Assembly: GCA_950295325.1 (NCBI GenBank) | Contig: OX485803.1 | Location: 67,905,554 to 67,969,553 of the forward strand | Direction: 5' to 3' | Origin: Polytrichum commune | Taxonomy: Eukaryota; Streptophyta; Polytrichopsida; Polytrichales; Polytrichaceae | Length of the DNA stretch: 64,000 nucleotides | In this document: positions 1 to 58,085 of the stretch, piece after piece | Numbering within the stretch: position 1 is the first letter of the stretch | Layout: the number at the start of each line of letters is the position of its first letter | Translations under genes and position numbers: made by a program | The notes under the pieces: generated by a model | What the model saw: only the letters and a program-made list of their open reading frames with translations | What the model was told of the DNA's origin: nothing | Database searches by the model: none

Positions 1-1390
1 CCCCCCCCCCGAGTCCCTAAGACATTAATGTCAAAGCTAAGTGTTCATGCATGTAAATCATTCTCATCTCTAATAACTTATGGAGTTATTTTTATCTCTT
101 TCATGGATTGAATGACCTACGTATTATTCTTCCTCTATTCAATTATATTTCAATATTTCAATTTGAAAGAGTCTCAAGACTTTATGTATTCCTAACCTAC
201 TCCTCGCTAAAGTATCTTTACGAGATTCCACAAACCATTCAATTCATAGAGTACACATGATTTACATGAATTCATTCATTGAAGTGTTTGACCCATTTCC
301 TATTCAAGTTCTCATTTCCGTAAATCTTATGCCATCATTTAGAATTCCCTTTAATCGATGAGGTATGGTTATGGAGATGCAATCTTAATATTGCTCGAGA
401 TTCATGTGGTGCTTGATGTGGCCCACTCGTTGGCCACCTCCTTTGTCATCCTCTCAATATGATTTCGATTCCGATGTCTCCCGCGGCCTTGCATATCACC
501 TTGTACTTCAATATGTTAGTTTCCAAAGTCCTTTCTCTTTAGTTGACCGCTAATTTTGGCTAAGTCCATATGTGTTGCATGCAAAACAACCAACCCCCAC
601 CCAAAAATTTGAGTGGGATAAATGATAACTCTAGTGCCTTTGAGAAGGTCATTCTTGAATTTGTGTTATCGCAAGCATGTGTGTTCATATTAGATGTCGA
701 CTATGAACGTCAAAAATCTTAGCCAATGAAGAGCACATAATGAATCTAGTAATAATATAACTTAAGATACAATTACAAGAATAAACGCTAGGAGAATGAC
801 TTTAAAACCAAGTTATGAAGTGATTCTCAATGCATGGGGGTGAGGGCAAAGCCACAAAGAGATTTATGCTAAAATTGCCTAAATTTTTTTTTATGTTAAA
901 CGATTTATGTTCATTCCTAGTAGTATTTACCTATCCAGTAGGGTTTATTGGGTATGGGAGGTGGGCATGTACCCATTATGCGCGGCAAGTATTATGTGTG
1001 ATGATTTCTAATGGCCAACAACTTTGATGCTTTATAAGTATCCATGGCCGCTTCTTATGTCATGCCATTATTTTCGTTGCCATAATATATGTTATATTTA
1101 AAATTTTGAATTCTTGGAACTCTAATGGTTCATAGTCCAAGAGAAAACAAGAGAACAATCGAACTTGAGTTCATGGGCTAAGGTGAAAGTGGGCCTATTA
1201 TGGATGCTCACGACTTCATCAATAAGGAATTGGAAATCATAGCTATGCTTGATGTCAAGCGCGATTGAGCATCTTACACGCATATTATGAGAATGTGCAA
1301 TTGACTTTGGTATGTTATAATAGGAATCTATGTTACAGAGTAGAATGTTAAAGTATGGAATCTATGTTATAATATGAACCTATTTTAAGC
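1..1390. other. AT-rich intergenic DNA, no gene seen
   Basis: I see no reading frame with recognisable protein features, no RNA gene and no clear repeat structure here. The window opens with a run of ten C. The short open frames present are isolated and have no codon bias or splice context. Confidence 0.6.
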
Positions 1391-1399
1391 ATTATCAAT

Positions 1400-1915
1400 A
1401 CTATTACCATTTATCGATTGAAAGTGATTATTATTATTACTATAAATCACTACTAGTCAGCCATTAGTAATTCATAATTATTAATCACTATTAAAAATTA
1501 TTAATGACTATAATGACCTATGAAGCACTAGCATTCACTATTATTCACTACTAGTCACTATTAGTTACTATTACTGGTAATTACTATTAATCACTATAAA
1601 TCATTTTTACTAATATTACTAATATTACTAATATTAACAATAGAGTGAATATGACAATTTACTAACAATAAAAATAATATCAATCATACTAATATGAGTT
1701 ATCTTAATAAGTACTAATAATGAACTTACTAATATGAGTTATCTTACTAAGTACTGATAATTATCTTACTAATATGCAGTTATCTTACTAATTACTAATA
1801 ATTGTCTTACTAATACTTAGATATCTTACTAAGTACTAATAATTATCTCACTAATACTTAGATATCTTACTAAGTACTAATAATTATCATACCAATAGGG
1901 CGAACCTTACAAAGT
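1400..1915. repeat. AT-rich tandem repeat, about 40-bp unit
   Basis: From about 1620 to 1905 a unit of about 40 bp (TTACTAATATGAGTTATC followed by TTACTAAGTACTGATAATTATC-like sequence) recurs five to six times with small changes. The left part (1400-1620) is a looser run of CACTATTAGT/ACTATTAATC words. It looks like a low-complexity minisatellite and no coding content is seen. Confidence 0.7.
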
Positions 1916-2099
1916 ACCAATAATTTTTTATCGCTACGTCCTAATACCATCATACCGCCCATCCCTCCTCAAAACGTACTTTAGCCGCCAAATCGCATAT
2001 CTCTTCGCGTCCCGAGATTGCCTCCATCATGTCCCTTCGTACTAATGAGGCATTATGTGTCATGCGACTTCCACCCGCTCGTCATTATGGCAACATTTC

Positions 2100-2944
2100 G
2101 CACCCTCTCTCTCCCTCTCTCTCATTCTCCTCTCCCAATTCTTTCTCTCTTTCCTTCACCACTCTCCACTTTTCTGGAATGCTCTTGCAAAACTCTTCTC
2201 CCACAATTCTGAACTTGCTTTGCTTCTCTTCATTCTCTTCATTCTCTTCTCTTCATTCAATTATTGTACTCCTTGTCTTGATTCTCTTCTCAAGAAAACC
2301 CTGGAATAGATTCAGTGTGCATTTTCTTGGAATATGTGATAGTTTCTTGGTGAGCATAGTTGTTTCTTGCTCAATCCAGCATGTGGTAGAGGTGAGATGT
2401 GGAGAAGAGGAAGGCGACCTTGAAGCAAGTGGAGGGAAGTTCCAATCATGAAGAATTGAGAACCCACAAGCTTGTAAGTTTCTGAACTCTTTCAATGTTT
2501 TGCACTCTCTTTCACTCATTTGCTTTCTCTTTCAATTTCATTCTTCCTCTTGCTTGCATTGTTCCTCTTGCATGCATTCTTCCACTTGCTTGCATTTCAA
2601 ATTTCTGGTGCACTAGGGTTTGAATTGCTTGAAGAATTTCAAACCCAGAAATACTAGAGATTTGCATGTGAGTTGTGTGATGCTTGGGTGTGAAGAGTTG
2701 ATTGAAATGTGAGAAAAATGCTCAAATCAGAATGCAAGATGAATGACAAGAGGTTATGTTCATAAAAATGTGAGACCAGATTGCAAGAAGAATGTGAGGG
2801 CAGAATTTACCTATTGAGATGTTTGAGAGTATGAATGTATTGCACATGTAGACATAGTTTGAAACAAATGCTCTTGTGTTTTGTTTTGTGCAGGAAACCA
2901 CATTCGTATTGAAAGAATTTTGACATGGTCCCCCCAAAGAACCC
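2100..2944 (+). promoter_or_regulatory. Candidate leader exons (pyrimidine-rich 5' UTR)
   Basis: A CT-rich tract (about 2100-2290) typical of plant 5' leaders runs into a good donor (AGCTT|GTAAGT at 2475/2476). A second candidate exon starts after TTTGTGCAG (about 2891) and ends at CCCTG|GTGAGT (2944/2945). It contains an ATG (2922) that opens a very short frame. The following interval up to 3776 would be an intron holding the palindrome arrays. This is inference from splice consensus and composition only. Confidence 0.35.
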
Positions 2945-3021
2945 TGGTGAGTGTCCATTACATAAATCCCAGTTTTTCTGTTAGTGTGAACGCGGTTATC
3001 TGAAAGTGGATATTTGAAGTG

Positions 3022-3232
3022 CCCACAGGTGAACACCCGTGGGCTTTTGCACCCACAAGGTGGAGAGGCCCACGGGTGAACACCCGTGGGCCTCTCCCCC
3101 CATCCGGTTGAATGTGCCCACGGGTGTTCACCCGTGGGCTTTTGCACCCACAAGGTGGAGAGGCCCACGGGTGAACACCCGTGGGCCTTTGCACTCACCA
3201 GGTGGAGAGTCCCACGGGTGAACACCCGTGGG
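3022..3232. repeat. Palindrome array 1 (five 22-bp palindromes, 47-48-bp period)
   Basis: Five palindromes start at 3022, 3069, 3117, 3164 and 3211. The arms are CCCACGGGTG and CACCCGTGGG, with centre AA or TT according to orientation; the first has one change (CACAGG). The 25-26-bp spacers are themselves related (CCTTTGCACTCACCAGGTGG-like, plus an inverted version), so this is a minisatellite of palindrome plus spacer. It lies in a probable intron. Confidence 0.9.
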
Positions 3233-3447
3233 CAGTGGTGATTCTTCACAAGGTCCCTAACATGTCCGTGGTCACATGTCGACATCTTTGTTTTTTTCTG
3301 TTCTTTTTTCCTAATTTTGTACCAACTTGAGGGAGACTTAACTTGTATAGATATTACCGGTTTCGGGGCGGGTTGAGATTTTTTCGCCTTTCAATTCAAT
3401 GTTTTTGGACGTGGACGAGCTTAAACTTTGTGAAAAATCAGCCCTCC

Positions 3448-3613
3448 CGTGGGCCTCTCCCCTCATCTGGTTGAAAGTGCCCACGGGTGTTCACCCGTGG
3501 GCCTTTGCACTCACCTGGTTAGGAGTGCCCACGGGTGTTCACCCGTGGGCCTTTGCCCTCACCTGGTTAGGAGTGCCCACGGGTGTTCACCCGTGAGCCT
3601 TTGCACTCACCTG
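3448..3613. repeat. Palindrome array 2 (three full 22-bp palindromes plus a half copy)
   Basis: A half copy at about 3447 is followed by full copies at 3480, 3528 and 3576 (the last has one G-to-A change in the right arm). The spacing is exactly 48 bp. Spacers are near-identical versions of CCTTTGCACTCACCTGG plus TTAGGAGTG. All copies here have the TT centre, unlike the mixed orientation of array 1. Confidence 0.9.
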
Positions 3614-3776
3614 GGTGGGAGATTTTGTTTGATAAATGTCTTTTTGATTTTCTATGTAGACAAATTTGGTGTGTCTCTGTAAGCATTTGAAGGTTTTAGA
3701 CATAAACATGTGATAGACAGTTGGTGTTTCATTCAGGTACATAGAGGTGTCGAAGTGTTCTCTCATTTGAATTGAG

Positions 3777-3978
3777 ATGGCAAGAACTAAGCAAACAACC
3801 CGTAAAGGTATAACCACAATACCTATGTGCACGTCAATGTTATATGAGTTATAGAATCCGTGATAATATTGGGCTATGCTGAGTACTTACATGTGCATTG
3901 TCTTCTGCAGTATCGGGAGGTGTGGGCTGTGAGCCCAAAAGGGTGCCCACATTTAGTCTTAGACCCTTGAAACGTTAG
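3777..3978 (+). CDS. Short two-exon frame encoding a histone H3 tail-like peptide
   Basis: ATG at 3777 opens the frame MARTKQTTRK, which matches the start of the canonical histone H3 tail (M-ARTKQTARK) except for Ala7 to Thr. A donor (AAAG|GTATAA, 3807/3808) and an acceptor (TTCTGCAG, ending 3910) join it in phase to V-SGG-VGCEPKRVPTF and a stop at 3978. This keeps the xxGG spacing of H3 (K-STGG). The rest of H3 is absent, so this is not a histone gene. It may be the first coding exons of a larger gene interrupted downstream, a tail-mimic peptide, or a decayed fragment. Continuity with the gene at 6155 is not shown. Confidence 0.4.
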
Positions 3979-5630
3979 TTGATGCACTTTGAAGTAGCAT
4001 GTTACTTCACAAAAATATAAAAAGAGTGAAATGTTAGTCTTAGAAGTACCATGTTGTAAGAGGCTAGGATGTGAGTTGTTATTGTGTTTTTACCTTCGGA
4101 AGGATTTGAGTGAATGAGGATAGGTAAGGAGAACTTGGATTGAGTAGTTAGTGAGTAGGCTAGTACAAATGGATGGAGACAACCAAAGTGACTCAAGAGG
4201 CAAGTGCATTCGAATTGGGATGAATGGAGGATCACATGGAGCGCACAAGTGGACCACCTCATCATGGCCACTTAATGGGGAAGGCCCAAGGAAGAATGCA
4301 AGGTGGAGGATAAGCAAATTCTCAAAGCACCAATCAAATCACGAGTTAAGCATCGTGGTTTGAATTAAGTGGTGAGCGACGATTTGGAAAAGTAAGGGGA
4401 GAAAGTTATGGCGGCGGAAAGCGAAGGAGGCTAAGTTTGGGTTGAAGCATCCCAAGTTTGGTAAAGTGTGGTAGGTAGAAAGCCAAGGCTAGTTAAATGT
4501 TCGAATTAGGATCCTTGTTGATCATTTGAGGGAGGAAGGCTTAGAAGATAGGATTGGCGCCTACTAAGTAGGAGGAAATCTCAAGGGCTTATCGTGAGCC
4601 TTGAGGGTGCTCACCCCCTCAAGCTTACTATATAATCCCTCATTCTTCCCTCACTCATCCTCTCTTTCCTTTGTGCTCCAAGGCACCCCACGAGTTATAA
4701 GTGTGGGTGTGGGAAGCCATATTGGAGCACATGTGTGTGCTTAGTTTTTAGTTTGAGAGCCAAGGCTTGTTAGCCTTGAAGAGGGCTTGACCTCTTGGTA
4801 GAATTAGTGTTGACGTGAAGGATTTTAAAGTTAATTCATGATTCCAATTTGTGGTACTTAAAGTTCATGTTTTGAATACACGTGGTTGCAAGTTCCATGT
4901 TTAAGAGTTGAGCACTTGATGTTGTGATGAGTGCAAAAATATACTTGTGTGGATTAGTTAGTCTTAGTGAAGTTAGGAAATTCTCTCTCCCCCTCTCCTC
5001 TCTAGGATTTTAGGATTTTAGGATTAGAGAAGAATTGTGTGATTAGAAAGGGGTTGTTAGTAGAATTAGGGAAATTAGGTAGGAAGATTAGTTAAGGGCT
5101 TGAATAATTAGTGAGGTAGTTGGGGATTACAACTACAAAGTTGTGGGTTTATGAAGGAGCTGGGTTTATGAAGGAGCTGGGTTTATGAAGGAGCTGGGTT
5201 TGTTTAGTTAGAAAGTAAAGAGCTGGGTTTATGAAGGACCTGGGTTTGTTTAGTTAGAAGCTAAGGAGCTGGGTTCATGAAGGAGCTGGGTTTATGAAGG
5301 AGCTGGGTTTGTTTAGTTAGAAGCTAAGAAGCTGGGTTTATGAAGGAGCTGGGTTTGTTTAGTTAGAAGCTAAGAAGCTGGGTTTATGAAGGAGCTGGGT
5401 TTATGAAGGAGCTAGGTTTATGTAATTAGAAAGTAAAGAGATGGGTTCATGAAGGAGCTTAGTAGATAGCCTACCTAATTAGCTCATAGACAAGTAGTTA
5501 GTTACATTATGCTAGTTAGTGTTATGTGTGGCTTTCACAAGTAAATGTATTTGAGATTGACTATAGAGAATAGTGTTTTTTTTAACACTTGCATCCTCTC
5601 TTTAAAAATAAACCACGTGCACAAATTAAT
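3979..5630. other. Non-coding stretch with a promoter-like segment
   Basis: No gene is recognised. A TATA-like box (CTATATAATCC, about 4629-4639) is followed by a CT-rich segment and a G-rich leader-like stretch. This is the arrangement of a plant promoter or of a retrotransposon LTR, but I could not find matching LTR ends or a primer-binding site. Confidence 0.35.
5150..5462. repeat. Minisatellite, GAGCTGGGTTTATGAAG units
   Basis: A 17-bp word (GAGCTGGGTTTATGAAG) and a longer variant carrying GTTTGTTTAGTTAGAAGCTAA alternate about a dozen times between 5150 and 5460. The two unit lengths form a higher-order pattern. No coding frame is maintained across it. Confidence 0.85.
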
Positions 5631-5952
5631 GGAGAATGTGGAGCACTCTCGCGATGGCAAGACAAAGGAAGCAAAGACCAAAGGTGCGAGGGAGAGATTG
5701 ACATAAGTCACATAAGTATTTCTTAATACTTAAAGGCTTATGTACGGTATGGAGACACCAAGTGAGACCTCTTATAGTAGCGATACGGAATACACAAGTG
5801 ATAGTTCAAGTGGTAGTATAGAGTCAACGGCACGGACTCCATTTAGGAGAGGGATATCCTTAAGGGCTTGTGTAGCTAAAGCGGCCGGATGGACGTTAGA
5901 AGCAAACAAAGACAAAATAGCACCCGAGCATAAGGAGGTTAAAATAACATAG
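5631..5952 (+). other. Short hypothetical frames, possible upstream exons
   Basis: A 25-codon frame (MENVEHSRDGKTKEAK...) at 5631-5708 is followed by a 70-codon Ser/Thr-rich frame at 5740-5952 (MYGMETPSETSYSSDTEY...) preceded by an AAAG acceptor-like site. Neither resembles a family I know. They could be upstream exons of the gene at 6155, the start of a retrotransposon gag, or chance. Confidence 0.2.
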
Positions 5953-6154
5953 TTAACTTGTGCATTCTCCACATACGTATTGAAATTGTACATTGAGTTG
6001 TTAAAAGTGAAATTCCAGTTAAATCCAAGACCACTTGAAGGGTGAACCTTGCACTATGGACTCATCCAAGTCCAAATCCAATACCGCGGAGGAATGTGAG
6101 CCCAAACCCACTACTCGGACTACGGACGCTTAAGGGTGGGGGGTTTGGCCTCAC

Positions 6155-9100
6155 ATGGGCAGATGGGTGAATTACGATGTTGAAGTTTTGGGCCCAGATT
6201 TGCAATGGTTCATGCAGTATAGTGGTTTCGGAGAGACAACGGTGCTCTCGCTTTATACGAGGACTGGGCCCAATTCTACATGGAGAAAGTACATGAAGGC
6301 AAAACATGTACTGGACATTCAAGCGGATGGGAGCCGGGTATTGATAATGTGCAAGTCGCCTGAACGGAAGAAGGACTTCAAGGTTGCAGCACTCGTGGAG
6401 ACTTTCTCATATGCGGATGTGAATGAAGAGCTCAACAATGAGGGAGAGAACATCCGCTTATTGAACGGTGATTTCCTCACCTATTGTATACTATATTGCG
6501 AGACCAATGTGCACACGAAGTCCGTGGAGGAGAGGTCAGTAATGATCGAGCAGGACTACAAGTCTGCTCTAGCACGAGTGAAGGTTATAGTTGAGGAGGC
6601 AAAGGCGGCAAGGTTGGAAGCATCTTTGAAGAAGAAGGAAATCCGCGATGGCAAGAGGAAGGATCTTGCTGATGTACGTGCCACCTCGTCTAGGAAGAAG
6701 ACGAGACCCGATGAAGGACAACCACTGATTGTCGAAGACACTGACGGCCAGGATGTTGTCTCCAAGAGAGGCAAGAAGAAAACACCCGAGGATAGTCCAT
6801 TTCTTGAACTCGAGAAGATTCCCAAGCGATCAATGCATGGGCCTCCAGACAAATCGGTTGGAGACAGGTTGATGGATATGGAGTTGTTCAAGAACAAGTA
6901 CCAAAGGGTGTGGATATTCGGTGAAGGCGTGAATGGCTATGTCAATATTGACAATATAGAGCGGGAAGATGCAGGGTATAATTGCCGACCCATATCCGAG
7001 GCGCATTTGAAGGAGATCAAGACATGGTTATTCAACTATGCCTTCATTCCGAAGATTCATCCCAACTTCTTGACAATCATTCCTTCGGATAGGTGAACTA
7101 AACCATTCAATTTTGAGGAGGTGAAGGACAAATCGTTCCACGTGGTAAATGGACAGCACACGTTAGCAGCCTGTCTGGAATATGTGAATGACCCTAGCAG
7201 CACAGATGAGGTGAAGAGGTTTTTCTCGAAATGGCCTTGTAATGTGGTCTGGGCCCCTGAAGGTGATGACGACCCTCTGTTCCATCTCTCTGGTGTTCTG
7301 AACCTGGATAGTGAGTACAAGAAGCACTTTCCATCATTTACGGAGTGCATTCAGCACGCTAGGAAGACCTGGATTAGGCGAGGAAGACCTGACCGAACTG
7401 TACGCGAGAAGGCCAGCAACATGGAAGCTTTTAAGAAGTGGAAGGTATTTTTCAAACCTGTGACTTTTGAATTTCTCATTTCTGTGACTCCCACGGGTGT
7501 TCACCCGTGGGCGACTATCATGTTGTTGGTGATTGCTAGAAATACATGGAGGTTTTTTTCATAGAGATTGATACATTGCCGGTGTTTGATACAGGCATTT
7601 ATTACGTGCATCATGTGGACGTTCCGCGTGGAGAAGGAGACCAACCTGATCATGGAGCATGTCTTGCCTGTATTGAGCGATGACATATGGAGGAAGTGGG
7701 AGCGGATATTCAAGGATTACGAGAGTGGTGACTATGTAGACCCGAAGACCGAAGCTCTTATGAAAGAGACAAAGGGGTTTAAGTCGAAGAAGGTGGTCAA
7801 GAACGACCTGAAACAATTTCGGGGCTTGACAGAGATGGAGCTCGACATGGCAGCGAATCAAATCCTCACCACCAGAGATGGAGAGGAGCACCCTCGACAT
7901 ACCTTGAAGACTGTGCGCGATTGGGCGATGAACAGGAAAAAGAAGAATGAAACTTATATCGCGATGGCACAGTGTCTAGACCCGACTCCATTGTACATTG
8001 TCCACGTCGATCAGAAAGAGACCATTGATCGTGATTGTTGGAGAGTATGGAAGTATGCGAATAAGTTTGGTAAACTCCAGCGAGAACGACTTGTAGACTT
8101 GCTTGGAGCGGAGTACCTTCTTGGCGCTATGAACCCCACAAGGAAGAGAGTACCTATTCCGGACCGGTTTAAAGAAGGAGTGAGGAACATTTTAGGTACA
8201 CATAACACCGAGGTTACACCCGAGCATGTCGTGTTGTCTATTGACAACAACTACAAGATCAGTGGTGGGACAGTGCTTGCACCAGTCCTGCACGCGTACA
8301 TGGACACAAGGTTTCTCCCCGGAGTCCAGGCGGGAAAAGACACTGGGGGGCGTGTGAAGGAGTGTATGGATTCCACTCTGCAAGGTCTTCGTCGTGATTT
8401 CCCAGGCATTTTAAACTCCCCCCAATTGTGGACTGTGATTTCAGAATATCCGGATCGGCATTTCATTCACAATGCGCTGAAGGCGCACCTTCCGAGCAAC
8501 GCCAGATTTTGTAACGCCTTATACCATGGCACTAAAGAGGAGAAAATTGCATCTCGCGATTGCTTCTTCGAATCAAATGCTCTTCGGGTTACAAACTGCA
8601 TTTTTCCCAATAGGGGCGAATCAAGTTCGGAGGTGGTTGTGCGGCTCTGTGGAGGCCGGAAGATGTTGGACGTCCATGACCCGGGGCGATATAAACGTTA
8701 TTCAGTGAAAAGGGCGTATTCCAATGAGGAGGCCAAGTGTTTATTCAAGGGGGAGTTGAGGATGCAGACCTACATAGATATCATCAAGCCTTCATGTCTT
8801 GAGGGGTCTTCTTTTCTCAATATTTGTGGAGGCAATAAGGCGCACATAGTGGCACATGTAAGTAATGAGCATATTTTCCCCTAAGTGGTTCTTGAATTTC
8901 TGAATATTATCGTTGGTTTGGATGGTGTTTTGGATAACCTAACCATAAACCAGGTTGGGAGGCCCACGGGTGAACACCCGTGGGCCTAGACATCCACCTG
9001 CTTTATATCCACCTGGTTGATAGCCACCTTCTCGATAGCTTTCCTAACAATTAGTTGGTTGACAAATAGTTGGGACTATTGGTTTAATTCTATTCGCTTT

Positions 9101-12100
9101 TGGATGTAGACTAATTTGATTGAGAAGTTATTTATCTCATGCCTTGGTTTTTGCAGGCATTGGGTATGAAGGTGTTGAATATTGTGCCGGCAGAGATGCT
9201 AGAGGTGGCGAAGACGAAGATGATTGCCGCAGTTGACTGGAGCATACAAAGGTGGAATGATGAAGGAAAATTCGCTGCCCAGGATTTGGAAGAGGAAGAA
9301 GGGCGTATCGATGTGGATTCCATCATTGAGCGCGAGATTGGAAGAAAGCGTGCGAATGACACAAATGAAGAGGACGTAGAAGAGGAGGAGGAGGAAGAGG
9401 TGGAGGAGGAAGATGACCCAGTTGTTGTCCTAGGGGAGTCTGCGGAGGAAGAGGAAGTGGCCGACGAAGAGGAAGAGGAAGAGGAAGAGGAAGAGGAAGA
9501 AGAGGTCATGGACGACGCACTGGCGGAGGCCATGGCTGAGGTCATGGCAGAGGTGGAGGAGGAGGCCTTCAATTACAAGGCGTCAGCCATGGCGGAGGCC
9601 TCTTTGGAGGCCATGTCCCCGGAGCAGGTTCCCCACGGGTGTTCACCCGTGGGGGAGGGGGAGGGGGAGGGGGAGGGTGAGGAGGAGCGGCAAGAGGATG
9701 CTTCCAACTTAGAGGAAGTTGGTCGTCCACAAGCCGAGCACAGTGTCCATCACCCTGTGGGATCTTTCTCGTCTGGGATCCCATCTACACCCGGCCGCGG
9801 GTTTGCACAGTTTGACACATCTAGACGAAGTCAAGAACAACTAGATGTTCAACCTATGGAAGAATATGAGGAGGATGAGCGTCCGCAGTCAGCTAATCCT
9901 GCTGCAAGGTCTGCATCGAAACCGACTGCAAGAAAGAAAATGAAAGCTCCTCGAAGGGGAAGGTCATCTCTACGTCCTGCTAGAGTTGGAGATCACTCGC
10001 GGTCTTCGGAGGCAACGGAGCATTCTGGTCTTTATCGCGAGGTTGAATCTGGCCAAGCGGATGTTCCGCGGGATGCAATCATGTCTGAAGCTGTGCATGT
10101 TGAAGGGACAAACACAGATTTGAACGTCAGCTCACCTGTTGAGGACGTTGCCGCTGCCGTTCTCGAGGTGCTAGGACATGGGCGATCAAATCGTGATTCA
10201 CCTGGTGTTGTGGTTGCAGAAGAGCCTACTGTAGCGGCACCATCCAATGAAGCAGAGGAGGTTATTCGAACCGAAGTCATATGCTTGGATAGTGATGACG
10301 ATGTGCCCGAAAGATGCGTAGAACTAGACGTGAGGGTGAAGGTGAGAGATCGAGTTCCACATCGGGTTCGGGGGACGTTTGCTGACTACATGACGGATGA
10401 TTCCGAGGATGAGGATTATGGGAAGCCTGGGTACAACAGAGTGAAACTCTACTTTGTTGATGACCCTCACCCGGTGTTTGTTGGGAGACCTGACATGGGC
10501 AAGGAATCGGATGGGAAGGACAAGGTGCATTTTGCCCCATTTGTGGACAAATACTTGGTAGATGTGCCCGAGAACGTGCGATTGAATCTTGCGCATTTGT
10601 ACAAGTCGTACGACTATCACAAGATGTTCGCTTATCTCTCCACACCAGCGTTTTGTGAAGCAGTGAAGGTGAAACATATTCTTCATGCCGCTGCATTAAA
10701 GAAAATGAGAAAGAGATGGACAGCGTTCGAAGCTCCCAAACATCGTGATGAACGAGGTCAATTCGCGGGGTCCTCGGCCGCTCAAGCCGGCAGTGTTGTG
10801 GACTCTACGTTGGAGATCATTGACATTACTGGAGTGCCAGAGTCTCCAAGGAGGGAAGTCGATGTTGCAGTTGCGGAGTCCTCAAGCCCTCATGTCGAAC
10901 GTGTTGCTGAGGGTCAACCGGCATCGTCCGAAATGGTAATACATACTCCCTTTCCAATGCTATATTGTGTTTGGCGGTGGAAGCAAACTCGTCAAGATTT
11001 CTAAAAGTGTCTTTGCAACAGGTGTTGGTTGCGGCAGAACGGGATGTCATTCCACCGAGTTCTCATGACGACCCTGCACATGGTGGGGATCCCCCCCTAA
11101 GCCAAGCTCAAGGTATCATATATAGTGTTATTTGAATGCAATTGGTCCCACGGGTGAACACCCGTGGGACCACCTGTTTATACTTTTCAATTTCCATACA
11201 AATTGTTATCTCTCGAGTAATATTTATATAAGGGACTTTTGATATTGTGCCCACGGGTGTTCACCCGTGGGAGATTATGGGTTTGAGCGTGTGGATCTCA
11301 TAAGTCATGTGTGCATGTGGTCACAGGTCATACAGCCACTGCCGGAATACCACCTTCGGTACGATATTTTCCTCGATCTCGCAAAACTAATCCATAAATG
11401 TGGAGGCATTCTTTTATCTTGCATACTCATGTGTACCCAACGTGTTGTTTCATTCGATAAAAATCATGTAGAATATATTTTTTCCTTAGATAGAAATCCT
11501 TTACAATGACTTTCAATTTTGTCATCGCCAGATCCTCACCTCTCCAAACACTGTTGTCCATCGGAGAGAGAAGATATGGTTAGTGCTGGATGTGAACGGG
11601 ATCCTGGTGAGGTCAACAAAGTGCGACAATGTCAACACCAGGAAGACTCTTGAATCACAACATAGCCCTCAGATAACTGGGGAGTTGGCTCCACTCTTTC
11701 TCCCATATAGTGCCCTCATACCTAGGAGAGGACTGGGACGCTTTCTGCGTTTTGTTCTCTCAAACTTCCATGTTGTCATCTGGTCGTCGAAGCTTATGAA
11801 GAATCTTCAGCCAATTGTCCGGCACTTCTTCAATGGTTGTAGACATCCAGAGTATGTGTTTGGGCAAGAATTGTGTCACACTCTGAAGGATGAGAGAGGA
11901 CAAGTTCTTCCTAGTCCTATGAATGCTGATTCAAGCTTCTTCATGAAATACCTGTGCGCATTATTTGAGTGGAGCCGGACGCATCCAGTGCCGCATACGA
12001 AGCAACCCAGTCATAGGACTACATTACTTGTTGATGACTCCCCTTACAAATGCATCCCAAACCCTCCTGGGAGCTACATTAACCCTGTACCATTTATGTC

Positions 12101-12314
12101 AAACCAAAGCTTGGATACTCTGCATAGTTACCTGCAAAGGCTCTTGAGTTCTCAACAGTATGTGCCAGATTTTGTGGGGAGCAACCCTTATCCATCAGGA
12201 CAGGGACCCTTCAATCTAGAGCTGCCAAATTCTCTGATTCAAAAGCAATCATTAGTTAGACATAAAATACTGACTTCTGCCCGTATGGTTCCAGAGGCTC
12301 AAATGTTAATGTAG
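6155..12314 (+). CDS. ParB/sulfiredoxin-like domain - acidic region - NIF/FCP1-type phosphatase fusion protein
   Basis: My spliced model uses exons 6155-7444, 7595-8857, 9157-10935, 11022-11112, 11327-11358 and 11532-12314. All junctions are GT-AG and all phases agree, giving about 1745 residues. From residue about 305 there is a ParB/Srx-like fold (RPISEAHLKEI, then VNGQHTLAAC near 331). Residues about 920-970 are almost all Glu/Asp. VICLDSDDD (about 1225) and LEIIDIT (about 1403) look like SUMO-interacting motifs. The last exon is an FCP1-homology HAD domain: LVLDVNGIL (motif I, Asp about 1505, second Asp replaced by Asn as in some plant members), VVIWSSK, and LLVDDSPYK. A single in-frame TGA (7094-7096) interrupts the ParB part just before FNFEEVKD. 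The gene is therefore a recent pseudogene, needs readthrough, or has a sequence error. An in-frame TAA at 6131 lies between the upstream ATG at 6056 and the chosen start. The organisation is confident; the function is not known. Confidence 0.7.
7490..7511. repeat. 22-bp palindrome in intron 1 of the ParB-NIF gene
   Basis: Perfect copy with TT centre, in a 150-bp intron (7445-7594), 45 bp from the donor. Confidence 0.95.
8963..8984. repeat. 22-bp palindrome in intron 2 of the ParB-NIF gene
   Basis: Perfect copy with AA centre. The palindrome extends to 13-bp arms (AGG...CCT). It is followed by CCACCTGGTTGA-like sequence that also occurs in the spacers of the arrays near 3 kb. Confidence 0.95.
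9632..9653. repeat. 22-bp palindrome inside an exon
   Basis: Perfect copy with TT centre, read in frame as PHGCSPVG within the acidic exon (codons about 1010-1017). It is directly followed by a G-rich GGGGAG tract encoding Gly-Glu repeats. The reading frame stays open through it. Confidence 0.95.
11147..11168. repeat. 22-bp palindrome in intron 4 of the ParB-NIF gene (copy 1)
   Basis: Perfect copy with AA centre, extending to 14-bp perfect arms (TGGT...ACCA). It is in the 11113-11326 intron. Confidence 0.95.
11250..11271. repeat. 22-bp palindrome in intron 4 of the ParB-NIF gene (copy 2)
   Basis: Perfect copy with TT centre, 103 bp after copy 1 in the same intron. The two copies are in opposite orientation. 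Confidence 0.95.
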
Positions 12315-12556
12315 ATTCCCTATTGGGGCCGCCTATAGTGCACATTTGCACTATCGGTACATTGTATTTGAAATGAGTGGATCTGAAACTTTGTTGCCTT
12401 TCAACTTCATTTGAAACTTGTTTTGGTTTTGTGGATTTTCTTCATGCAAACATGTCATGGTCATGAATGTATCTCACTGGGAGTCTACTACTTTGCAACA
12501 CTGCGGTGTTAGAGAATACCCGACTATTTCCGACCACAGTGAATGTCTGGCATTGT

Positions 12557-12577
12557 CCCACGGGTGTTCACCCGTGG
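12557..12577. repeat. 22-bp palindrome downstream of the ParB-NIF gene
   Basis: Copy with TT centre that lacks the last G of the right arm. It lies between the stop codon at 12314 and the next candidate exons. Confidence 0.9.
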
Positions 12578-12798
12578 CAATGTGGTAGTTGATTCAATGA
12601 ATGTATCAGGCCACTTGGACAATGTTAGTTGTGTTTTTGGGAATTATGGTTGTCATAGCGAATTTTAATATGTAGGACTTAGTCGGCTATAATTCATATG
12701 TTTTGAACATGTTCATCTTTACTAAAGGGCAACGGACGGGCTCCTCTTGCACATAATGTCCTTCTTCCATGGACTCTTATGTTATTGTATCCTAACAG

Positions 12799-13383
12799 CA
12801 TTCCCCATTCCAAACGCGACCTAAGAACTATATTGCCAGTCCACCATGTCGACAACGTCCTCCGGATGCTAACGCCGACTTCGCCGAAGTGACATCTCCA
12901 TGCCCTAAGGTAATTCATTTTCCACATGAATCCCAATTTTTTTAGTTGTGTTTCATCCCAGGGATTCTAATATCAATTTGTCGTTTGTTGTGGTAGACAC
13001 ATATGCTCCAAACACACGATGTTGCGCTCGCGGTTGCGGTGGCTGTTCCGGTCGCGGTTGAGGAGGCTGTTCCGGTCGATGTTGCGGGTCCGGTCACACG
13101 CGCTCGGGTGAAGAGACACCTTTCTCTCCAAACCACTCACCCCAGTGAGCCCACGGGCTCGGGAAATAGTTCTGGATGTTGGAGGTGTAGTTCACCCAAT
13201 ACCACCTCATCCATGTCTGATTACGTGGCTGCAAGGGTGAAACAACTTCGAGAAGCTACAGTTTTGATGGAGGAGAAAAAACGGCTTGAAGAAGTCAAGC
13301 GCAAGCAATGTACTATAGCTCAAAGACAACCTCATGACAAGATGTTGAAAATGATTAAGGATTCATACTCCTCTTGTAGATAG
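12799..13383 (+). CDS. Hypothetical coiled-coil protein, two candidate exons
   Basis: A candidate exon 12799-12909 (after TCCTAACAG, ending CCTAAG|GTAATT) joins in phase 0 to 12997-13383 (after GTGGTAG). The second exon encodes an Ala-Val-rich start, a Cys/Ser/Thr-rich middle and a charged C-terminal helix (RVKQLREATVLMEEKKRLEE), likely a coiled coil, ending in a stop at 13381. No upstream start was found, so it may be the 3' end of a gene with more exons, or an extension of the gene before it. I do not recognise a family. Confidence 0.35.
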
Positions 13384-13408
13384 CCGGACCTTTATGGTGA
13401 TAGATTTT

Positions 13409-13428
13409 CCACGGGTGTTCACCCGTGG
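13409..13428. repeat. 22-bp palindrome family, shortened copy
   Basis: Nine-bp perfect arms (CCACGGGTG / CACCCGTGG) with TT centre, 25 bp after the stop codon of the preceding frame. Confidence 0.9.
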
Positions 13429-13592
13429 ATACAACAATTCATATACTTTGTTCACATTTTTTGTGCCCACTGTGGCATCTATGATTCAATCAAATGATTT
13501 TTTGACCCTCATTTGTGTAGTCGGATATGACATGTAGACCTTCCTTCATGTGTTATGGATCTTGCATCGTGTGTTGCATGGCGTTGATTGGT

Positions 13593-13962
13593 CACGGGCG
13601 TTCACTCGTGGTTAGATGTATTTGTATTCTCTGAGTAGTATTAAGTGCCCATGATAGCTTTTATGATTAGACCCATTATATTTGCATACAGTTGTTGACA
13701 TGCGCATGGTTGTTCCTTAGTGGTGTCGACTTATGTTGTATTATGGATATACTAGGCTCATCTGTTGCGGGGTGTTGGTTGGTCACGAGTGAACACCCGT
13801 GGTGACAACTGGGCTAAGTTTTTATGTGGGCTAGAATAAGCATTATTTTAGCTTATATATATACACCAATGTGCATGAAATAGTGCCCTAGTCTATGTTG
13901 ATGACCTTCCTCTTGTTCTAAACCTTGTCAATGATGGCAATTCACGGGTATTTACTCGTGAA
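13593..13962. repeat. Three decayed palindrome copies
   Basis: Copies lie at about 13593-13611, 13783-13801 and 13941-13962. Most differences from the consensus are C-to-T or G-to-A. In the last copy three base pairs changed on both sides (outer CC/GG to TT/AA and inner G/C to A/T), so it still folds. Confidence 0.75.
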
Positions 13963-13964
13963 CC

Positions 13965-14870
13965 ACGTTCCCAATGCACGTTCCCATCGGTACGAATTGT
14001 CTCATAATGGCCCAATTGGCTCATTTTAGTTAATATCCCCATCTGGATACATTGTTGGAATATCTACCCGAGGTGCAAATACATGTAATCTTGCAAGCAA
14101 CCCAGTTGTATGCATTTTCCACAGTAAACTTACAAGTCTTTCATGTCCAATTTTACCTGGCTTCCACCATGATCAGAGACTACAAAATTGTCTCCCATGA
14201 AACTTCTGGCATCTATTGTGACTTGTACACCAAAGATATAACTTCCAAGTTTCTCAATTGTGTAAGAAATTTATTATTCCGTTCTACAAATTTTTACAAC
14301 ACTACCATCTCATGAGATCACATCGAGCAATTTTCCTACCTATCACACCAAATTTCTGTGGGTACTCTCACATGGGATCATTTGTACGAGCAACACTACT
14401 AAGATTGTGGGCATGCACTAGAGCACACGCTGCTTCGACACAAACCGAGTTTGTGTCGATGTAATGGTAAGGGGGGAAGAAGAAGAAGAACTCCGGTCTC
14501 CGGAGGAGGCCGGAGTGAATAGAGTGTCTGTTCGTAAAACACCCTTAGTCACACCCTAGGGCAATGGCGTTAGATGTAGAACTACTTCACCCTTTGTAGG
14601 GAGTAGACACTATATTAGTAGCAAATAGCCGGTTAACCGGTAACCAGTAGTATGTGGTAGTTGTTATTGGTGTTTTCAAGTAAGGTGGCATTATTTTATA
14701 TGGTAAGGTGTACCGGGTTATGAGATAGGTTATTTAGTTGTAAGGGGGGGATTGTTCACTTTAATGCCATAGTCCTTTTGCAATTGCGTGCTTGCTAACG
14801 CTAGATTACCACCCTCTGCCAAACTTACCTTCACCACCAAAGTGATAACATGACTCTTGTGACTACATTG
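13965..14870. other. Intergenic, no gene seen
   Basis: No supported coding sequence. It contains a perfect short hairpin (14435-14459) and a purine-rich patch with CTCCGG words near 14485-14515. Confidence 0.5.
14435..14459. repeat. Perfect hairpin, 11-bp stem and 3-nt loop
   Basis: Stem TCGACACAAAC / GTTTGTGTCGA around the loop CGA. It is not linked to a coding feature. Confidence 0.8.
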
Positions 14871-14872
14871 AT

Positions 14873-15075
14873 TATCCCAATTAGTGTGTGTTACTATTCA
14901 GAGTTACGCAATGCTATAACTATTTAATGAGAATGTAACATTTTACCAAGAAGAGGCATTTATGTTCTATAACGTCTGTAGAACCTGTTGAACTTTCGTT
15001 AGTAAATAATGAACTCATGAGTAAGATGTTATTGCACCGCGTAACTCTGAATAGTGACACACACTAATGAGGATA
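14873..15075. mobile_element. MITE, about 203 bp, 38-bp terminal inverted repeats
   Basis: The left end reads TATCCCAATTAGTGTGTG then TTACTATTCAGAGTTACGC. The right end is its reverse complement with few changes and ends GGATA. It has no coding content. A decayed copy lies at 22646-22842, and related ends occur at 52389-52606. Confidence 0.85.
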
Positions 15076-15101
15076 AACGGTGTAGCGGGGAATGGATTGA
15101 T

Positions 15102-15446
15102 CTACAATAAGTGAATTGTCCACGTCCATCCATTTGACGCTGCTTGCACTAAACTTGGCGTGAATTTAGGTAGTTCTCTTTCATTGCAAATTGGCCCACA
15201 TTTTTTTGGGGGGGGGGGGGGTGGGGTGTTAGGGTTTAGGGGGCATTTAGGAAAACGAGGGAAGCATAGAGCAAAAACTTTGAGAAGGCTTGAGGAACTA
15301 AGATTGTGGAGCCAGGTATGCAACAACATGCTCATGAATTCCATCAGAAAAGCAATCCCCACTTGCTCACGGTGTCTCCTCTCCCTTGGCCATTTTGCCA
15401 CCTCCAACTCCACCTCATCCAAGTAAGCATGCAATAATTCCCTCAT
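15102..15446 (-). other. Hypothetical open frame, possible exon
   Basis: The first 55 codons on the minus strand (MRELLHAYLDEVELEVAKWP...) have a plausible helical, charged composition. They run into a homopolymer-rich stretch (13 C on this strand) encoding polyproline. No family recognised and no partner exons found. Confidence 0.15.
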
Positions 15447-28335: not shown

Positions 28336-28417
28336 GTCGCTTTGGCCGAGTGGTTAAGGCGTGTGCCTGCTAAGTACATGGGGTTTCCCCGCAAGAGTTC
28401 GAATCTCTTAGGCGACG
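28336..28417 (+). tRNA. tRNA-Ser (anticodon GCU)
   Basis: It is 82 nt with a seven-pair acceptor stem (GTCGCTT / AGGCGAC, one G-T pair), an A-box region TGGCCGAGTGG, anticodon GCT in the loop, a long type-II variable arm (ACATGGGGTTTCCCCGC) and a T-arm/B-box GAGTTCGAATCTC. The long variable arm and the anticodon identify serine (AGC/AGU codons). A Pol III stop signal follows 32 nt later. Confidence 0.93.
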
Positions 28418-29290
28418 GATAGTGGTATAGACTATGGCGACTCCTCCCTTTTTATAAGCGGAACACACCATGACACGTGAGATGATAGTTTTGCATTTTA
28501 ATATGCAAGGGGAAGATATTCCTGAGCATACTAATGTCAAGGGTTGTTTGTGTATACTTTAGTCAACTTGAAGATCATTGTGTGTGCTGTGCAACATTTC
28601 CCTCTTGGAGTGGATTCCAAGGTTGTGTACCCTAGGGGTAGTTCGAATCTCTTAGGCAACGGATAGTGGTATAGACTATGGCGACTCCTCCCTTTTTATA
28701 AGCGGAACACACCATGACACGTGAGATGATAGTTTTGCATTTTAATATGCAAGGGGAAGATATTCTTGAGCATACTAATGTCAAGGGTTGTTTGTGTATA
28801 CTTTAGTCAACTTGAAGATCATTGTGTGTGCTGTGCAACATTTCCCTCTTGGAGTGGATTCCAAGGTTGTGTACCCTAGGGGTGGTTGTGGTTGTCAAAG
28901 TACTAGAGGAACACACCATGACACATATTCTTGAGCGTACTGATGTCAAGGGTTGTTTGTGTATACTTTAGTCAACTTGAAGATCATTGTGTGTGTTGTG
29001 CAACATTTCCCTCCTGGAGTGGATTCCAAGGTTGTTTACCGTAGGGGTGGTTGTGGTTGTCAAAGTACTAGAGGAGCACACCATGACACGTGAGATGATA
29101 GTTTTGCATTTCAATATGCAAGGGGAAGATACATTTTAGCATGCAAGGGAAGATATTCTTGAACATACTGATGTCAAGGGTTGTTTGTGTATAGTTTAGT
29201 CAAATTGAAGATCATTGTGTGTGGTGTGCAACATTTCCCTCTTGGAGTGGATTCCAGGGTTGTTTATCCTAGGGGTGGTTGTGGTTGTCA
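28397..29290 (+). repeat. Tandem repeats (244-bp unit) that copied the tRNA 3' half
   Basis: Unit 1 starts inside the tRNA T-arm at 28397 and unit 2 at 28641 (GTTCGAATCTCTTAGGCAACGG), so the period is 244 bp. Unit 2 therefore carries the tRNA 3' end and B-box without the 5' half. Two or three shorter, more diverged units follow (about 28890-29050, 29052-29290), marked by CAAGGGTTGTTTGTGTATAC and GGAGTGGATTCCA. Confidence 0.85.
28449..28453 (+). terminator. Pol III T-run terminator of tRNA-Ser
   Basis: TTTTT, 32 nt after the tRNA 3' end. It is the first run of at least four T downstream. Confidence 0.6.
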
Positions 29291-56099: not shown

Positions 56100-58085
56100 A
56101 AACAACTCTACACAATATAACTCCAATTTGATCAGGATCCTCCATGGAATTTGATCAGTAGAGTTTTATATGAGATCCACATTCAACCTCTATCAGTGCG
56201 ATGATCACCGATTAATCCCAGATTCTGACTGTCGACATCTTTCAGCAACATTCAACCTTGAACACTGATTCCGAATTGCAAGGATGCCCCTGTTTTGCTT
56301 CAAGATGGAGCACAAGTTGCAACATGATAACTTAGCCCACTAGCTAGGGAGCATGGATTATGTGGGCCTGATGTGGTCACTTTTCTTCACTAGCTTAGCA
56401 CCCACATTTGAGTGGTCTATAGCAAGGTTGGGTGTCAAGAACGGACTCCAAAAAGACATGTACAATAATGAGATTAGGAAGACTGAGTGCTCAAATCATA
56501 CCAGTCATTTTTAAATCGAACAGTTAGCACAATTGGGAAGCCTTTGTGAGGGCTTACAGAGAAAGAGAATCCTCATGGTGACCTCTACAAGTCTTGCACC
56601 TCAAATTTGGTTCAAAGTCTTGAAATGAGAATCTGTGTGATTAAGAATTGCTAATCGGATGAGCCAATTCCCGAGGTGATCTAACGGTCGGAGTGAAATG
56701 TATGACATGGAGTTGGAAGCGTCCTTAGGTTGTTTGCTGAAGGATGTTGAGTTGCATCGGCAACTCAGGTGTGTGGACCTTATGAGGTCATTTGCCTTAA
56801 TTGGACACTAATATAGTAGAGTGGTGCATGGCAAGGATTTTAATTAAGAATAGATATCAAACAATTATGTGTTATGATGAGATCAGACTATATGCACAAA
56901 ACATATTAACCAATATTGGACACAATTGGGAGGGCCTAGTATACATAATCATTTAGAGAGAGAGAGAGAGAGAGATCACTTGCATGGACTCTCATAACTT
57001 TTGCATCTCTCCTCCGATTCCAAAACTTGAAATGACAGTTATTTGTGATTCGCAATTTCTAACCACATTAGACAATTTCCAAGCCAATCCAACAATCAAA
57101 AATGTTGTGAAACTATAAGTACCCACAATGAAGCCACATATGGTAGACGTGCCTATATCCAACATAGCAATTAATTTGGAAACATGTATTTGAATGGCAT
57201 GTGGTTAGATGCGGATTTAAGACTCGACACACAAAAAAGACAAATGTTAAATGAAGAGTGGACTACATGCTTAAAATATGCTAAACATGCAAAGCTCAAT
57301 AGTCAACATAATTGGGGAGGAGGACCTATATGACCATCTAGTGAGCACGAGAAGCATTGACTTCGATAATTAAGAAGATATTCATATGATCTCCAAAAAT
57401 CATGAGACAGACAACTACTGGCATGATATGGATTTGCTAATCATCTTGCGCGAATTGCGTGTTTCGTATCTCAGAAGAAGTGAGTTCAGAGAGAAAGAAA
57501 GCACCTGAATAACACGACCTATATGACCATCTAGTGAGCACAAGAAGCATTCACATTGATAATTAAGAAGATATTCATATGATCTCCAAAAACCATGAAG
57601 CGAACGGCTACAGCCACGCTGTGGATTTGCTAATCATCTTGGGCTAATACCGTGTTTCGTATATTTGAAAGAAGTGAGTTCAGAGAGAAAAGAAAGCACC
57701 TGAACAACACACGCGTCTGCCTTACATACCTTGCAACATAGACTAATCCTCCACTTCACAAAATACAGAAACCTGATGCCTGATGCACGATGACATCAAG
57801 ATTCTCCCCTCACTGCAATGTCAAGTGCCGCATCGGTATGAGTGCAATGTAGACTCCCACGATTGCCCATAACTTAAGGTAACTTGTTTCAAGTGGAGCT
57901 CGACCGACATGCGATGAAAAGGCAGCAGCATTGGAGATGGCATGATTCCATGCGCACAGTGCGTGTCCCTAGAATTGTGGTCTGTACAGGTCCACGAATA
58001 TAAGGTGATGAGCACAGACCACACACATACCTGAATTGGAGAGTCCGCCTGTTATGGGTGCTTTTGGGGCTTCAGCACAATATAT
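56100..58085. repeat. Upstream of GDSL: dispersed repeats and a 193-bp tandem duplication
   Basis: Three diverged copies (about 56395-56700, 56805-57110, 57160-57480) share ATTTGAGTGG..., GATGCGGATTTAAGAC..., CATAATTGGGGAGG and AAGATATTCATATGATCTCC with each other and with the AKR intron repeat at 26690. GACCTATATGACCATCTAG at 57323 recurs at 57516, a tandem duplication with a 193-bp period. An (AG)n run lies at about 56954-56974. No gene is seen. Confidence 0.7.

Follow-up and report, generated by a model that had tools for sequence, protein, structure and literature searches.

What is a cluster of GC-rich 22-bp palindromes doing in a plant nuclear genome? The window, that is, the whole analyzed stretch of 64,000 nucleotides of Polytrichum commune DNA, contains 32 half-sites with at most one mismatch, all at 3022–13803. 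With one decayed site, they make up 17 full, half, or decayed palindromes, nine of them in or beside arrays of 47- and 48-bp repeats at 3021–3621 and eight standing singly. No half-site of this kind was found elsewhere in the 64 kb, and the stretch 14043–64000 had neither an exact half-site nor a full site at up to three mismatches. Shuffling the window 100 times gave a mean of 1.55 half-sites and a maximum of 6; chance origin was rejected, since both the shuffled window and the reversed genome control fell far below the observed numbers. The sites are as follows (no strand is assigned).

3022–3232: first array, 47-bp repeat holding five palindromes, CCCACGGGTG-NN-CACCCGTGGG (one mismatch at 3022; exact at 3069, 3117, 3164, and 3211)
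3444–3597: second array, 48-bp repeat (half-site at 3444; exact at 3480 and 3528; one mismatch at 3576)
7490–7511: exact palindrome in the ORF1/ORF2 gap of the ParB-like gene, inferred intron
8963–8984: exact palindrome in the ORF2/ORF3 gap of the ParB-like gene, inferred intron
9632–9653: exact palindrome inside the reading frame of ORF3 (acidic), where it reads PHGCSPVG
11147–11168: exact palindrome in the gap between ORF3 and the NIF ORF, inferred intron
11250–11271: exact palindrome in the same gap, inferred intron
12557–12578: palindrome with one mismatch, 3' flank
13408–13429: palindrome with the outermost base of both arms symmetrically changed, 3' flank
13782–13803: decayed palindrome with four mismatches, 3' flank

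The initial annotation had described a cluster of about 17 palindromes absent from the other 50 kb, lacking inner sequence and lying in introns, arrays, and flanks in both orientations. All of this is borne out, with the two orientations having AA or TT as centre, the introns inferred, intron and flank placement being read from the window using the ORF map of a second copy, and with one site (9632) in an open frame.

The palindromes are carried by a DNA transposon of about 25 kb, the right half of which lies in the window. The left end of this copy is at C1:67891906, 13,648 bases ahead of window base 1, and the copy is ~98.9% identical over long aligned stretches to copy B (C1:48452758–48477718). 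The element has terminal inverted repeats, and a perfect 4-bp target duplication was recognized by eye in 11 of 12 copies. Sola transposons also have a 4-bp target duplication. On opposite strands, the element encodes a DUF7869 ORF (PF25273, E 2.4e-46), which is taken as the transposase, and a gene with a ParB-like fold and a NIF phosphatase domain. DUF7869 was not mentioned in the literature searched, which was thin on subscription journals. The features of the element in the window are listed below.

1–14042, plus strand: right half of the transposon copy, by alignment to copy B
6164–7444, plus strand: ParB-like gene, ORF1, following the insertion; TGA at 7094–7096
6842–7384, plus strand: ParB/sulfiredoxin-fold domain with VVNGQHTLAA, from the fold matches of the homologous L015 domain
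7595–8860, plus strand: ParB-like gene, ORF2, without a Pfam match
9157–10934, plus strand: ORF3, acidic and of low complexity
11532–12311, plus strand: NIF (FCP1/SCP-like) phosphatase domain (Pfam PF03031, E 1.9e-10)
12997–13380, plus strand: small ORF, also in L012 and L013
14012–14042, minus strand: right terminal inverted repeat, end ...TTAATATCCCCAT, followed by the target duplication CTGG at 14043–14046

In copy B, 15 of the 16 palindromes are outside the mapped ORFs, the exception being inside ORF3. The tie of the palindromes to the ParB-NIF gene and its paralogues holds, the NIF part by Pfam and the ParB fold by structure comparison only.

The palindromes had been thought confined to one locus, as independent hairpins spreading there. 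This part of the earlier interpretation fails, as the exact window palindrome has 644 copies in the 408-Mb genome (0 for the reversed-pattern control) and belongs to a dispersed element. Placement was judged from the first 50 matches listed, all on C1. By position, 36 of these are in four element copies with an ORF2 match, one is beside a DUF7869 match, and one is in an element fragment (38 in all); a further nine are in a second repeat, which contains both T- and C-type palindromes (types defined below). These 50 matches gave no picture of even scatter without regard to the gene family. Nor did they show dispersal independent of a larger element, as in MITEs or mobile GC-rich hairpins, since 47 of the 50 were assignable to larger repeats and none of the 47 was free-standing.

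Four transposon clades in this genome each have a 22-bp palindrome of their own, CCCACGGGTG, CCCACGGGCG, GTTTGGGTCG, and TTTACGGACG, all with 10-bp arms and a 2-bp centre; exact copies number 644, 177, 9231, and 1147. The types are here called T (that of the window), C, G, and A. Exact half-sites were tallied in ten stretches. The three T stretches had 30, 36, and 27 of type T, the three G stretches had 34, 93, and 15 of type G, and the single A stretch had 24 of type A, in each case with no other type; the three C stretches had 18, 26, and 34 of type C, with two T and one G as the only strays. The fourth clade was set as a test: the 17 kb beside its transposase proved to carry a ParB-NIF gene together with a further palindrome, arranged as in the other clades. 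In types T, G, and A, the transposase and the ParB-like gene lie on opposite strands. No convincing terminal repeats were found for the G-type element. A DUF7869 locus 26% identical to the window-type transposase (L021) had no palindromes of the four types, and two loci picked by guessed distance from a transposase (L022 and L025) had neither gene nor palindrome. As separate observations, L024 has two G-type palindromes but not the gene, and the relics L017 and L028 carry remnants of the gene but no clear palindromes. No prior report of a plant transposon with clade-specific palindromes was found in our literature search, again thin on subscription journals.

Half-site likeness, compared by eye, drops as ORF2 identity drops. 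T and C agree at 9 of 10 half-site bases (ORF2 66% identical) and G and A at 6 of 10 (37%); the other pairs (C–A, 6; T–A, 5; C–G, 4; T–G, 3) have ORF2 identities of 24–29% over 103–203 aligned residues. GG at arm positions 6–7 and G at position 10 are common to all four. The palindrome type also tracks the protein tree, on which three labels need only the minimum of two changes, a number as low being reached in none of 200 shuffles; the T rows do not come out as a separate supported group. This co-divergence cannot single out the ParB-like protein, because the transposase also differs between the clades (40–51% identity of the DUF7869 ORF between T and G copies).

Against a relative of 84% identity, 199 of 206 aligned palindrome bases were identical (96.6%; the motif itself may aid the aligner), compared with 4603 of 5364 in exons (85.8%) and 1928 of 2515 at other non-coding positions, although gaps were commoner in palindromes (14 of 220 bases) than in exons (2.4%). 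Palindromes are largely kept between copies differing by 14% in their exons. Tiny mobile or self-copying units, such as GC clusters or hairpins, in a susceptible locus could account for many near-identical palindromic copies in both orientations, some arrayed, and for their occurrence in the second repeat. The absence of lone T-type sites among the 47 assigned matches, the persistence across 14% exon divergence, and the private sequence of each clade, which self-spreading does not predict, make this highly improbable. The persistence and the related clades with other palindromes in the same layout lead us to regard the independent-hairpin reading as wrong.

Imperfect sites mostly decay on one side: one-sided versus symmetric double changes numbered 17 and 4 in type T, 33 and 1 in C, and 31 and 0 in G. 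On the transcribed strand, the one-sided changes gave 19 G.U, 21 A.C, and 24 other mismatches. An RNA role of intron hairpins, in splicing, termination, or small-RNA production, is suggested by the palindromic form and by the location of most copy B sites outside ORFs, but the lack of preference for G.U over A.C and the presence of palindromes near both divergently transcribed genes render it very improbable. The centre of type G, with ten different dinucleotides among 62 exact sites, argues in the same direction, and such freedom fits two half-sites read by a dimer. In types T and C, the centre is limited to AA, TT, or AT.

The element protein with the predicted ParB-like fold is the candidate binder. 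In a Foldseek search of the PDB with the L015 domain model, ranks 1–13 were all ParB, Noc, PadC, KorB, or sulfiredoxin; these are modest matches (lowest E 0.011, with prob 0.98; TM 0.28–0.40 by query length), and the model, built from nine input rows including the L037:7266-7841 ORF, has a middling pLDDT of 68.8. The best BFVD match was a chromosome partitioning protein (E 5e-4). A full-length structure model had a pLDDT of 35.5. Sequence methods did not detect ParB: Pfam gave no match, NCBIfam and PDB profile searches gave nothing relevant, hhalign against three ParBs gave 0.1%, and PDB sequence searches gave no useful match. PHROGs matches were all weak: for ORF2, a “transposase” family (E 0.078); for ORF1, two at 0.15–0.16; and for the acidic ORF3, one family of unknown function (8.8e-4). 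None of 60 pattern stretches in viral contigs was confirmed as a relative. A link of the GAGGCCTCGG repeat with the ParB-like ORF at L037:7266-7841 (minus strand) was rejected, its motif being seen by eye only and the profile comparison giving 1.1%. Also discarded was the assignment to this repeat of the MULE-like-looking ORF beside it, which has no Pfam match and recurs away from the repeat.

Here, we propose that the palindromes serve the giant transposon as cis-recognition sites specific to each clade, bound by a candidate element protein in the service of anti-silencing, an explanation that we hold, on balance, to be probable. In its favor are the near-exclusive palindrome types and their common design, the half-site likeness that follows ORF2 identity, the high identity of aligned palindrome bases, the outcome of the fourth-clade test, the fold matches, and the fit to the protein tree. 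Weighing against it are the failure of sequence methods to detect ParB, the modest fold match, the divergence of the transposase between clades, the gaps in palindromes, their mostly one-sided decay, the signs of methylation, the lack of a supported T group, and the relics with no clear palindromes. The element-encoded protein, most likely the one with the ParB/sulfiredoxin fold, would act as a symmetric dimer that binds the palindromes at numerous non-coding positions of the element. Recognizing only the palindrome of its own clade, it would mark its own copies, which may then be kept or made open, allowing expression of the transposase and ParB-NIF genes. We infer binding by a protein, the choice of the ParB-like protein over the transposase, and the anti-silencing outcome; each clade probably finds, and perhaps switches on, only its own copies, as a self-recognition system. 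A loading-and-sliding clamp of the ParB type and a tethered NIF phosphatase are guesses. We regard as doubtful the fullest version, a eukaryotic parS/ParB-like self-recognition with at least four mutually exclusive pairs of palindrome and ParB-fold protein, each private to one giant DUF7869 clade, in which a nucleotide-gated clamp would load, spread, clear silent chromatin, and bring the NIF-type phosphatase to RNA polymerase II.

Instead, the palindromes may be sites for the DUF7869 transposase, or for a replication factor, with a role in transposition akin to that of the subterminal repeats of other DNA transposons. The transposase is encoded within the same element and has diverged between clades, some palindromes are near the ends (at 1327 and 24327 within the 24961 bases of copy B), and one G copy has an array of 19 just upstream of the transposase ORF. 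However, most copy B sites are far from the ends, with the main array lying 16 kb inward of the left end and 8 kb inward of the right end and others in the gaps separating the ParB-NIF ORFs, and we consider this function rather unlikely. The TnpA protein of En/Spm (CACTA) binds a 12-bp, subterminal, non-palindromic motif and has an epigenetic role. The moss element resembles that system in its repeated private motifs and in the proposed epigenetic role of an element-encoded protein but differs in its palindromic sites and transposase class. Tandem arrays with periods of ~47, 48, 78, 95, and 135 bp across the elements could also point to host-silencing baits or boundary sites amplified by tandem duplication; a host factor leaves the clade-by-clade palindromes and their identity above that of exons unexplained, and we think this very improbable.

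The means by which transposons recognize themselves and evade silencing are far from settled. VANC is the one well-studied case of such self-recognition known to us; its VANDAL transposons are MULEs. For the clade-specific palindromes, our proposal would make an apparent second, independent solution, with four clades, four palindromes, and thousands of sites. Motif binding and anti-silencing by VANC have been demonstrated in Arabidopsis (PMC5735166; see also PMC10398659). In the parts of these reports considered, the motifs, as in moss, are short, differ between related families, and are concentrated in the non-coding DNA of introns, intergenic stretches, and termini; expansion through tandem repeats, a one-base “T-type/C-type” split (PMC5735166), and motifs common to an unrelated repeat (AT9TSD1 in Arabidopsis, the GAGGCCTCGG repeat in moss) are further likenesses. 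VANC motifs are of 8–9 bases, those of VANC21 in one orientation, whereas the moss sites are 22-bp palindromes, the candidate binder has a predicted ParB fold, and the DUF7869 transposase with its 4-bp duplication is not of the MULE type. The VANC domains DUF1985 and DUF287 had no Pfam match in the subset of moss-element ORFs scanned.

In the algal giant DNA transposon Sola1-1_Ec32 (21.5 kb), a ParB-like gene is likewise opposite the transposase strand, and the authors suggest that algal ParB-methyltransferase proteins bind the element that encodes them and mark it (PMC12477816). A methyltransferase is present there, a NIF phosphatase domain in the moss element, whose scanned ORFs (excluding the small post-transposase ORF and the element middle) had no DNA methyltransferase match. 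Cis binding sites are not mentioned in the passages of that report considered, and its main text has no occurrence of “palindrom”; the moss palindromes could supply the missing cis half for such ParB-like genes. The four natural candidate DNA–protein specificity pairs are swappable, may reveal a binding code, and are possible tools for targeted epigenome editing.

In bacteria, the ParB fold forms clamps that load at palindromes, and parS and Noc sites are palindromic. The moss system is like ParB–parS, Noc, and VirB in its palindromic sites and, by structure match, its ParB fold. It is unlike them in having 22-bp sites, many per element, in a eukaryotic transposon, and sequence-level homology was not found. 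By eye, the region aligned to the CTP motif (GERRxRA-like) reads GQHTLAA or GQHSVEA, with GERR replaced by GQHT or GQHS; G and A are kept, and the arginines are lost. VirB, an anti-silencing protein of the ParB superfamily, requires CTP (PMC10653881, in the part considered), and we count VANC and VirB as precedents that support the anti-silencing reading.

CpG transitions between two T copies (0.0264) exceeded those at other C/G sites (0.0085) ~3-fold, and in a G pair the values were 0.0111 and 0.0074, both measured without a control family; of four such comparisons, one was limited to ~800 sites and another used a copy pair already compared. This excess suggests that element copies are methylated at least part-time. 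The CpG observed/expected ratio is 0.60–0.86 in the elements versus 0.47–0.48 in the copy B flanks and the rest of the window; the raised ratio could come from youth or coding content, and L023, which lacks these palindromes, has a ratio of 0.75.

The palindrome CCCACGGGTG-NN-CACCCGTGGG (type T; 10-bp arms around a 2-bp centre) is represented in the window by 32 half-sites with up to one mismatch, all within 3022–13803, compared with an average of 1.55 over 100 shuffled sequences; none was found in the remaining 50 kb. Two arrays, with repeat units of 47 and 48 bp, account for nine of the sites, which are located within or next to them. The clustering described in the initial annotation was thus borne out, but the proposed confinement to one locus was not, as 644 exact type T sites were counted in the 407.8-Mb genome (control, 0). 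The inner spacings of the sites (1473, 669–680, 1502–1609, and 103 bases) are nearly constant between the window and the listed genomic places, which is the mark of a repeated element. Among the first 50 listed sites, 47 were assigned: 38 to this element family, either by position or from reading the stretch, and nine to another repeat. The idea of hairpins spreading within a locus is unsound, and the palindromes belong instead to clades of giant transposons.

The element was delimited by aligning the window and 20 kb of upstream sequence against copy B, a second copy of this transposon (C1:48452758–48477718). It is 24,961 bases long, and the two copies are ~98.9% identical over two long aligned stretches. 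The features are as follows.

Start 13.6 kb before the window, end at 14042: window copy of the element, from the alignment with copy B
Left end of the element, minus strand: ORF of 692 aa with a DUF7869 domain match (E 2.4e-46), taken to be the transposase
Right side of the element, plus strand: ParB-NIF gene, consisting of ORF1 and ORF2 (ParB-like), acidic ORF3, and an ORF with a NIF phosphatase domain
3928–6155: 2.2-kb insertion near the beginning of ORF1; its ends read TGTGAG/CTCACA, and the duplication, by eye, is 5 bp (TGGGC)

Terminal inverted repeats of 31 bp (90% matched) begin with ATGGGGATATTAACTAAAATGAG at both ends. The target duplication is CTGG at the window copy and ATCC at copy B; a perfect 4-bp duplication was seen by eye in nine of 10 further copies examined at both ends and was lacking in one, giving 11 of 12 in total. 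The genome contains at least 150 DUF7869 matches (150 of 1,491 candidates scored) and at least 102 matches to ORF2 (99 of 858 candidates scored), and DUF7869 was not found in 14 control genomes. The window copy is broken by the 2.2-kb insertion, which also holds GAGCTGGGTTTATGAAGG repeats at 5154–5459, and by a TGA at 7094–7096; the ORFs of copy B are open at both places. The middle of copy B (element positions about 4425–15248, ~11 kb) has no ORF longer than 125 aa and only scattered repeats of about 90–220 bp in both orientations. Outside the element, the window has tandem duplications at 28396–29089 (periods 244 and 165; 98% and 95%) and 57323–57710 (period 193; 86%).

The ORF2 matches drop in identity stepwise. 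L012, a stretch with an 84% relative, has the type T palindrome, as in the window. The stretches with 66–70% relatives (L013, L014, and L015) carry CCCACGGGCG-NN-CGCCCGTGGG (type C), in which the change from type T in one arm is mirrored in the other, and their type T half-sites number 0, 0, and 2, respectively. Those with relatives of about 30% (L016, L018–20, and L026) carry GTTTGGGTCG-NN-CGACCCAAAC (type G). As a test, one more DUF7869 match (C7:5155765) was taken, and the 17 kb between it and L023 was examined because L023, ~18 kb away, had a transposase yet no T, C, or G palindromes. This stretch contains the start of the first of these transposases, which shares 38% identity with the window type over 301 residues, as well as a NIF domain and a ParB gene whose identity to the two ORFs of L016 is 33% and 37%. 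In line with the idea under test, it also carries a palindrome, the new TTTACGGACG-NN-CGTCCGTAAA (type A; nine exact sites, 17 with up to three mismatches). The sites form arrays next to the transposase and ahead of ORF1 and are also found just after ORF1 and ORF2. Exact sites of types T, C, G, and A number 644, 177, 9231, and 1147 genome-wide, with all controls at 0. The half-site table over ten element stretches is nearly diagonal, the only strays being the two T in L015 and one G in L013. An ORF2 tree of 11 rows, built prior to the discovery of type A, supported the C rows (93/100) and the G rows (100/100) and gave no supported grouping of the T rows. The T, C, and G labels require only two changes on it, the lowest possible number, a clustering that near-identical copies favour. 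The relic L027, which retains two C half-sites, was placed with type C on a long and unsure branch. Overall, the giant transposons form a set of clades, each with a palindrome of its own.

Between copy B and L012, 199 of 206 aligned palindrome bases are identical (96.6%, somewhat flattered since the motif itself may assist the aligner), with 14 more gapped. The corresponding values are 4603/5364 (85.8%; 2.4% gapped) for exons and 1928/2515 (76.7%; 27% gapped) for other non-coding DNA. Of the 16 sites in copy B (up to six mismatches), 15 are outside the mapped ORFs. In acidic ORF3 of L014 (5446–5659), a coding repeat of 48 bp (HGRSPVG) that holds the palindrome in frame occurs five times, indicating that the site is kept even within an open frame. 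Changes in imperfect type T sites are concentrated at the outermost arm base, and those in all types mostly affect one arm without a compensating change in the other. Any centre dinucleotide seems to be tolerated in type G, where 62 exact sites show 10 kinds, whereas types T and C have only AA, TT, or AT. The palindromes are private to each clade, highly identical, and found again and again in spacers, arrays, and probable introns, as would be expected of binding sites of an element-encoded dimer, which they probably are.

The ParB-like protein is the candidate binder. It has no Pfam match, and its window-type and G-type domains are mutually related (hhalign 86.8%, E 4e-6). A structure model of the L015 domain (pLDDT 68.8, pTM 0.66) matched only ParB-superfamily proteins (PadC, Myxococcus ParB with nucleotides, Caulobacter ParB, Noc, and KorB) or Arabidopsis sulfiredoxin at PDB ranks 1–13 (best E 0.011, probability 0.98), and other folds among the best 50 matches never exceeded a probability of 0.08. 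The TM-scores were low (0.28–0.40 by query length); comparison with a viral structure library agreed with the PDB result. Because sequence profile searches (PDB profiles, NCBIfam, and hhalign against three ParBs) did not support the relationship and the CTP-site arginines of ParB are missing, the predicted ParB likeness is a claim on fold only. The catalytic motif used for comparison of the NIF domain (window 11532–12311; L016:6897–7739) has two Asp residues. The first is kept and the second is Asn (LDVNG, LDLNG), so that phosphatase activity is uncertain.

Here, we favour a mechanism in which the ParB-fold protein, as a dimer, would bind the palindromes of its own clade and the bound protein would counteract silencing of the element. 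The precedents are as follows. VANC21 and VANC6 of Arabidopsis VANDAL elements bind different short motifs massed in the non-coding parts of their own elements, and these motifs expand through tandem duplication (PMC5735166); the mechanism proposed here would share this logic. VirB is described as a bacterial anti-silencing protein of the ParB superfamily (PMC10653881), and algal giant transposons carry ParB-like genes with methyltransferases, whose ParB-like products were suggested to mark the element that encodes them by binding to it (PMC12477816). As read here, the private palindromes are a new variant of transposon self-recognition. Some results fit badly with the favoured mechanism: CpG transitions between two T copies are raised about threefold, suggesting that silencing does reach them, and the elements have an elevated CpG content, but so does one stretch lacking these palindromes. 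A further such result is that the transposase likewise differs among clades.

The other repeat, which holds nine of the first 50 listed type T sites, has as its main palindrome a fifth one, GAGGCCTCGG-AT-CCGAGGCCTC, of which the genome contains 1917 exact sites. L029 and L030 (C1:28.02 Mb and 47.96 Mb) together have 52 such sites plus three T and two C palindromes. One unrelated Arabidopsis element with a VANC motif is affected too (PMC5735166); as AT9TSD1 may exploit VANC6, this repeat may make use of proteins from the T and C clades and is a possible hitchhiker on the putative binders. Two features lie near it in the stretch L037.

L037:7266–7841, minus strand: ORF with RPISEVEV...FFVWEGNHRLTAWW, beside the GAGGCCTCGG repeat; it resembles the ParB-like motif, and profile comparison gave no support
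L037:461–1885: transposase of CACTA type (Transposase_21, E 4.8e-63), separated by some kilobases from the GAGGCCTCGG repeat
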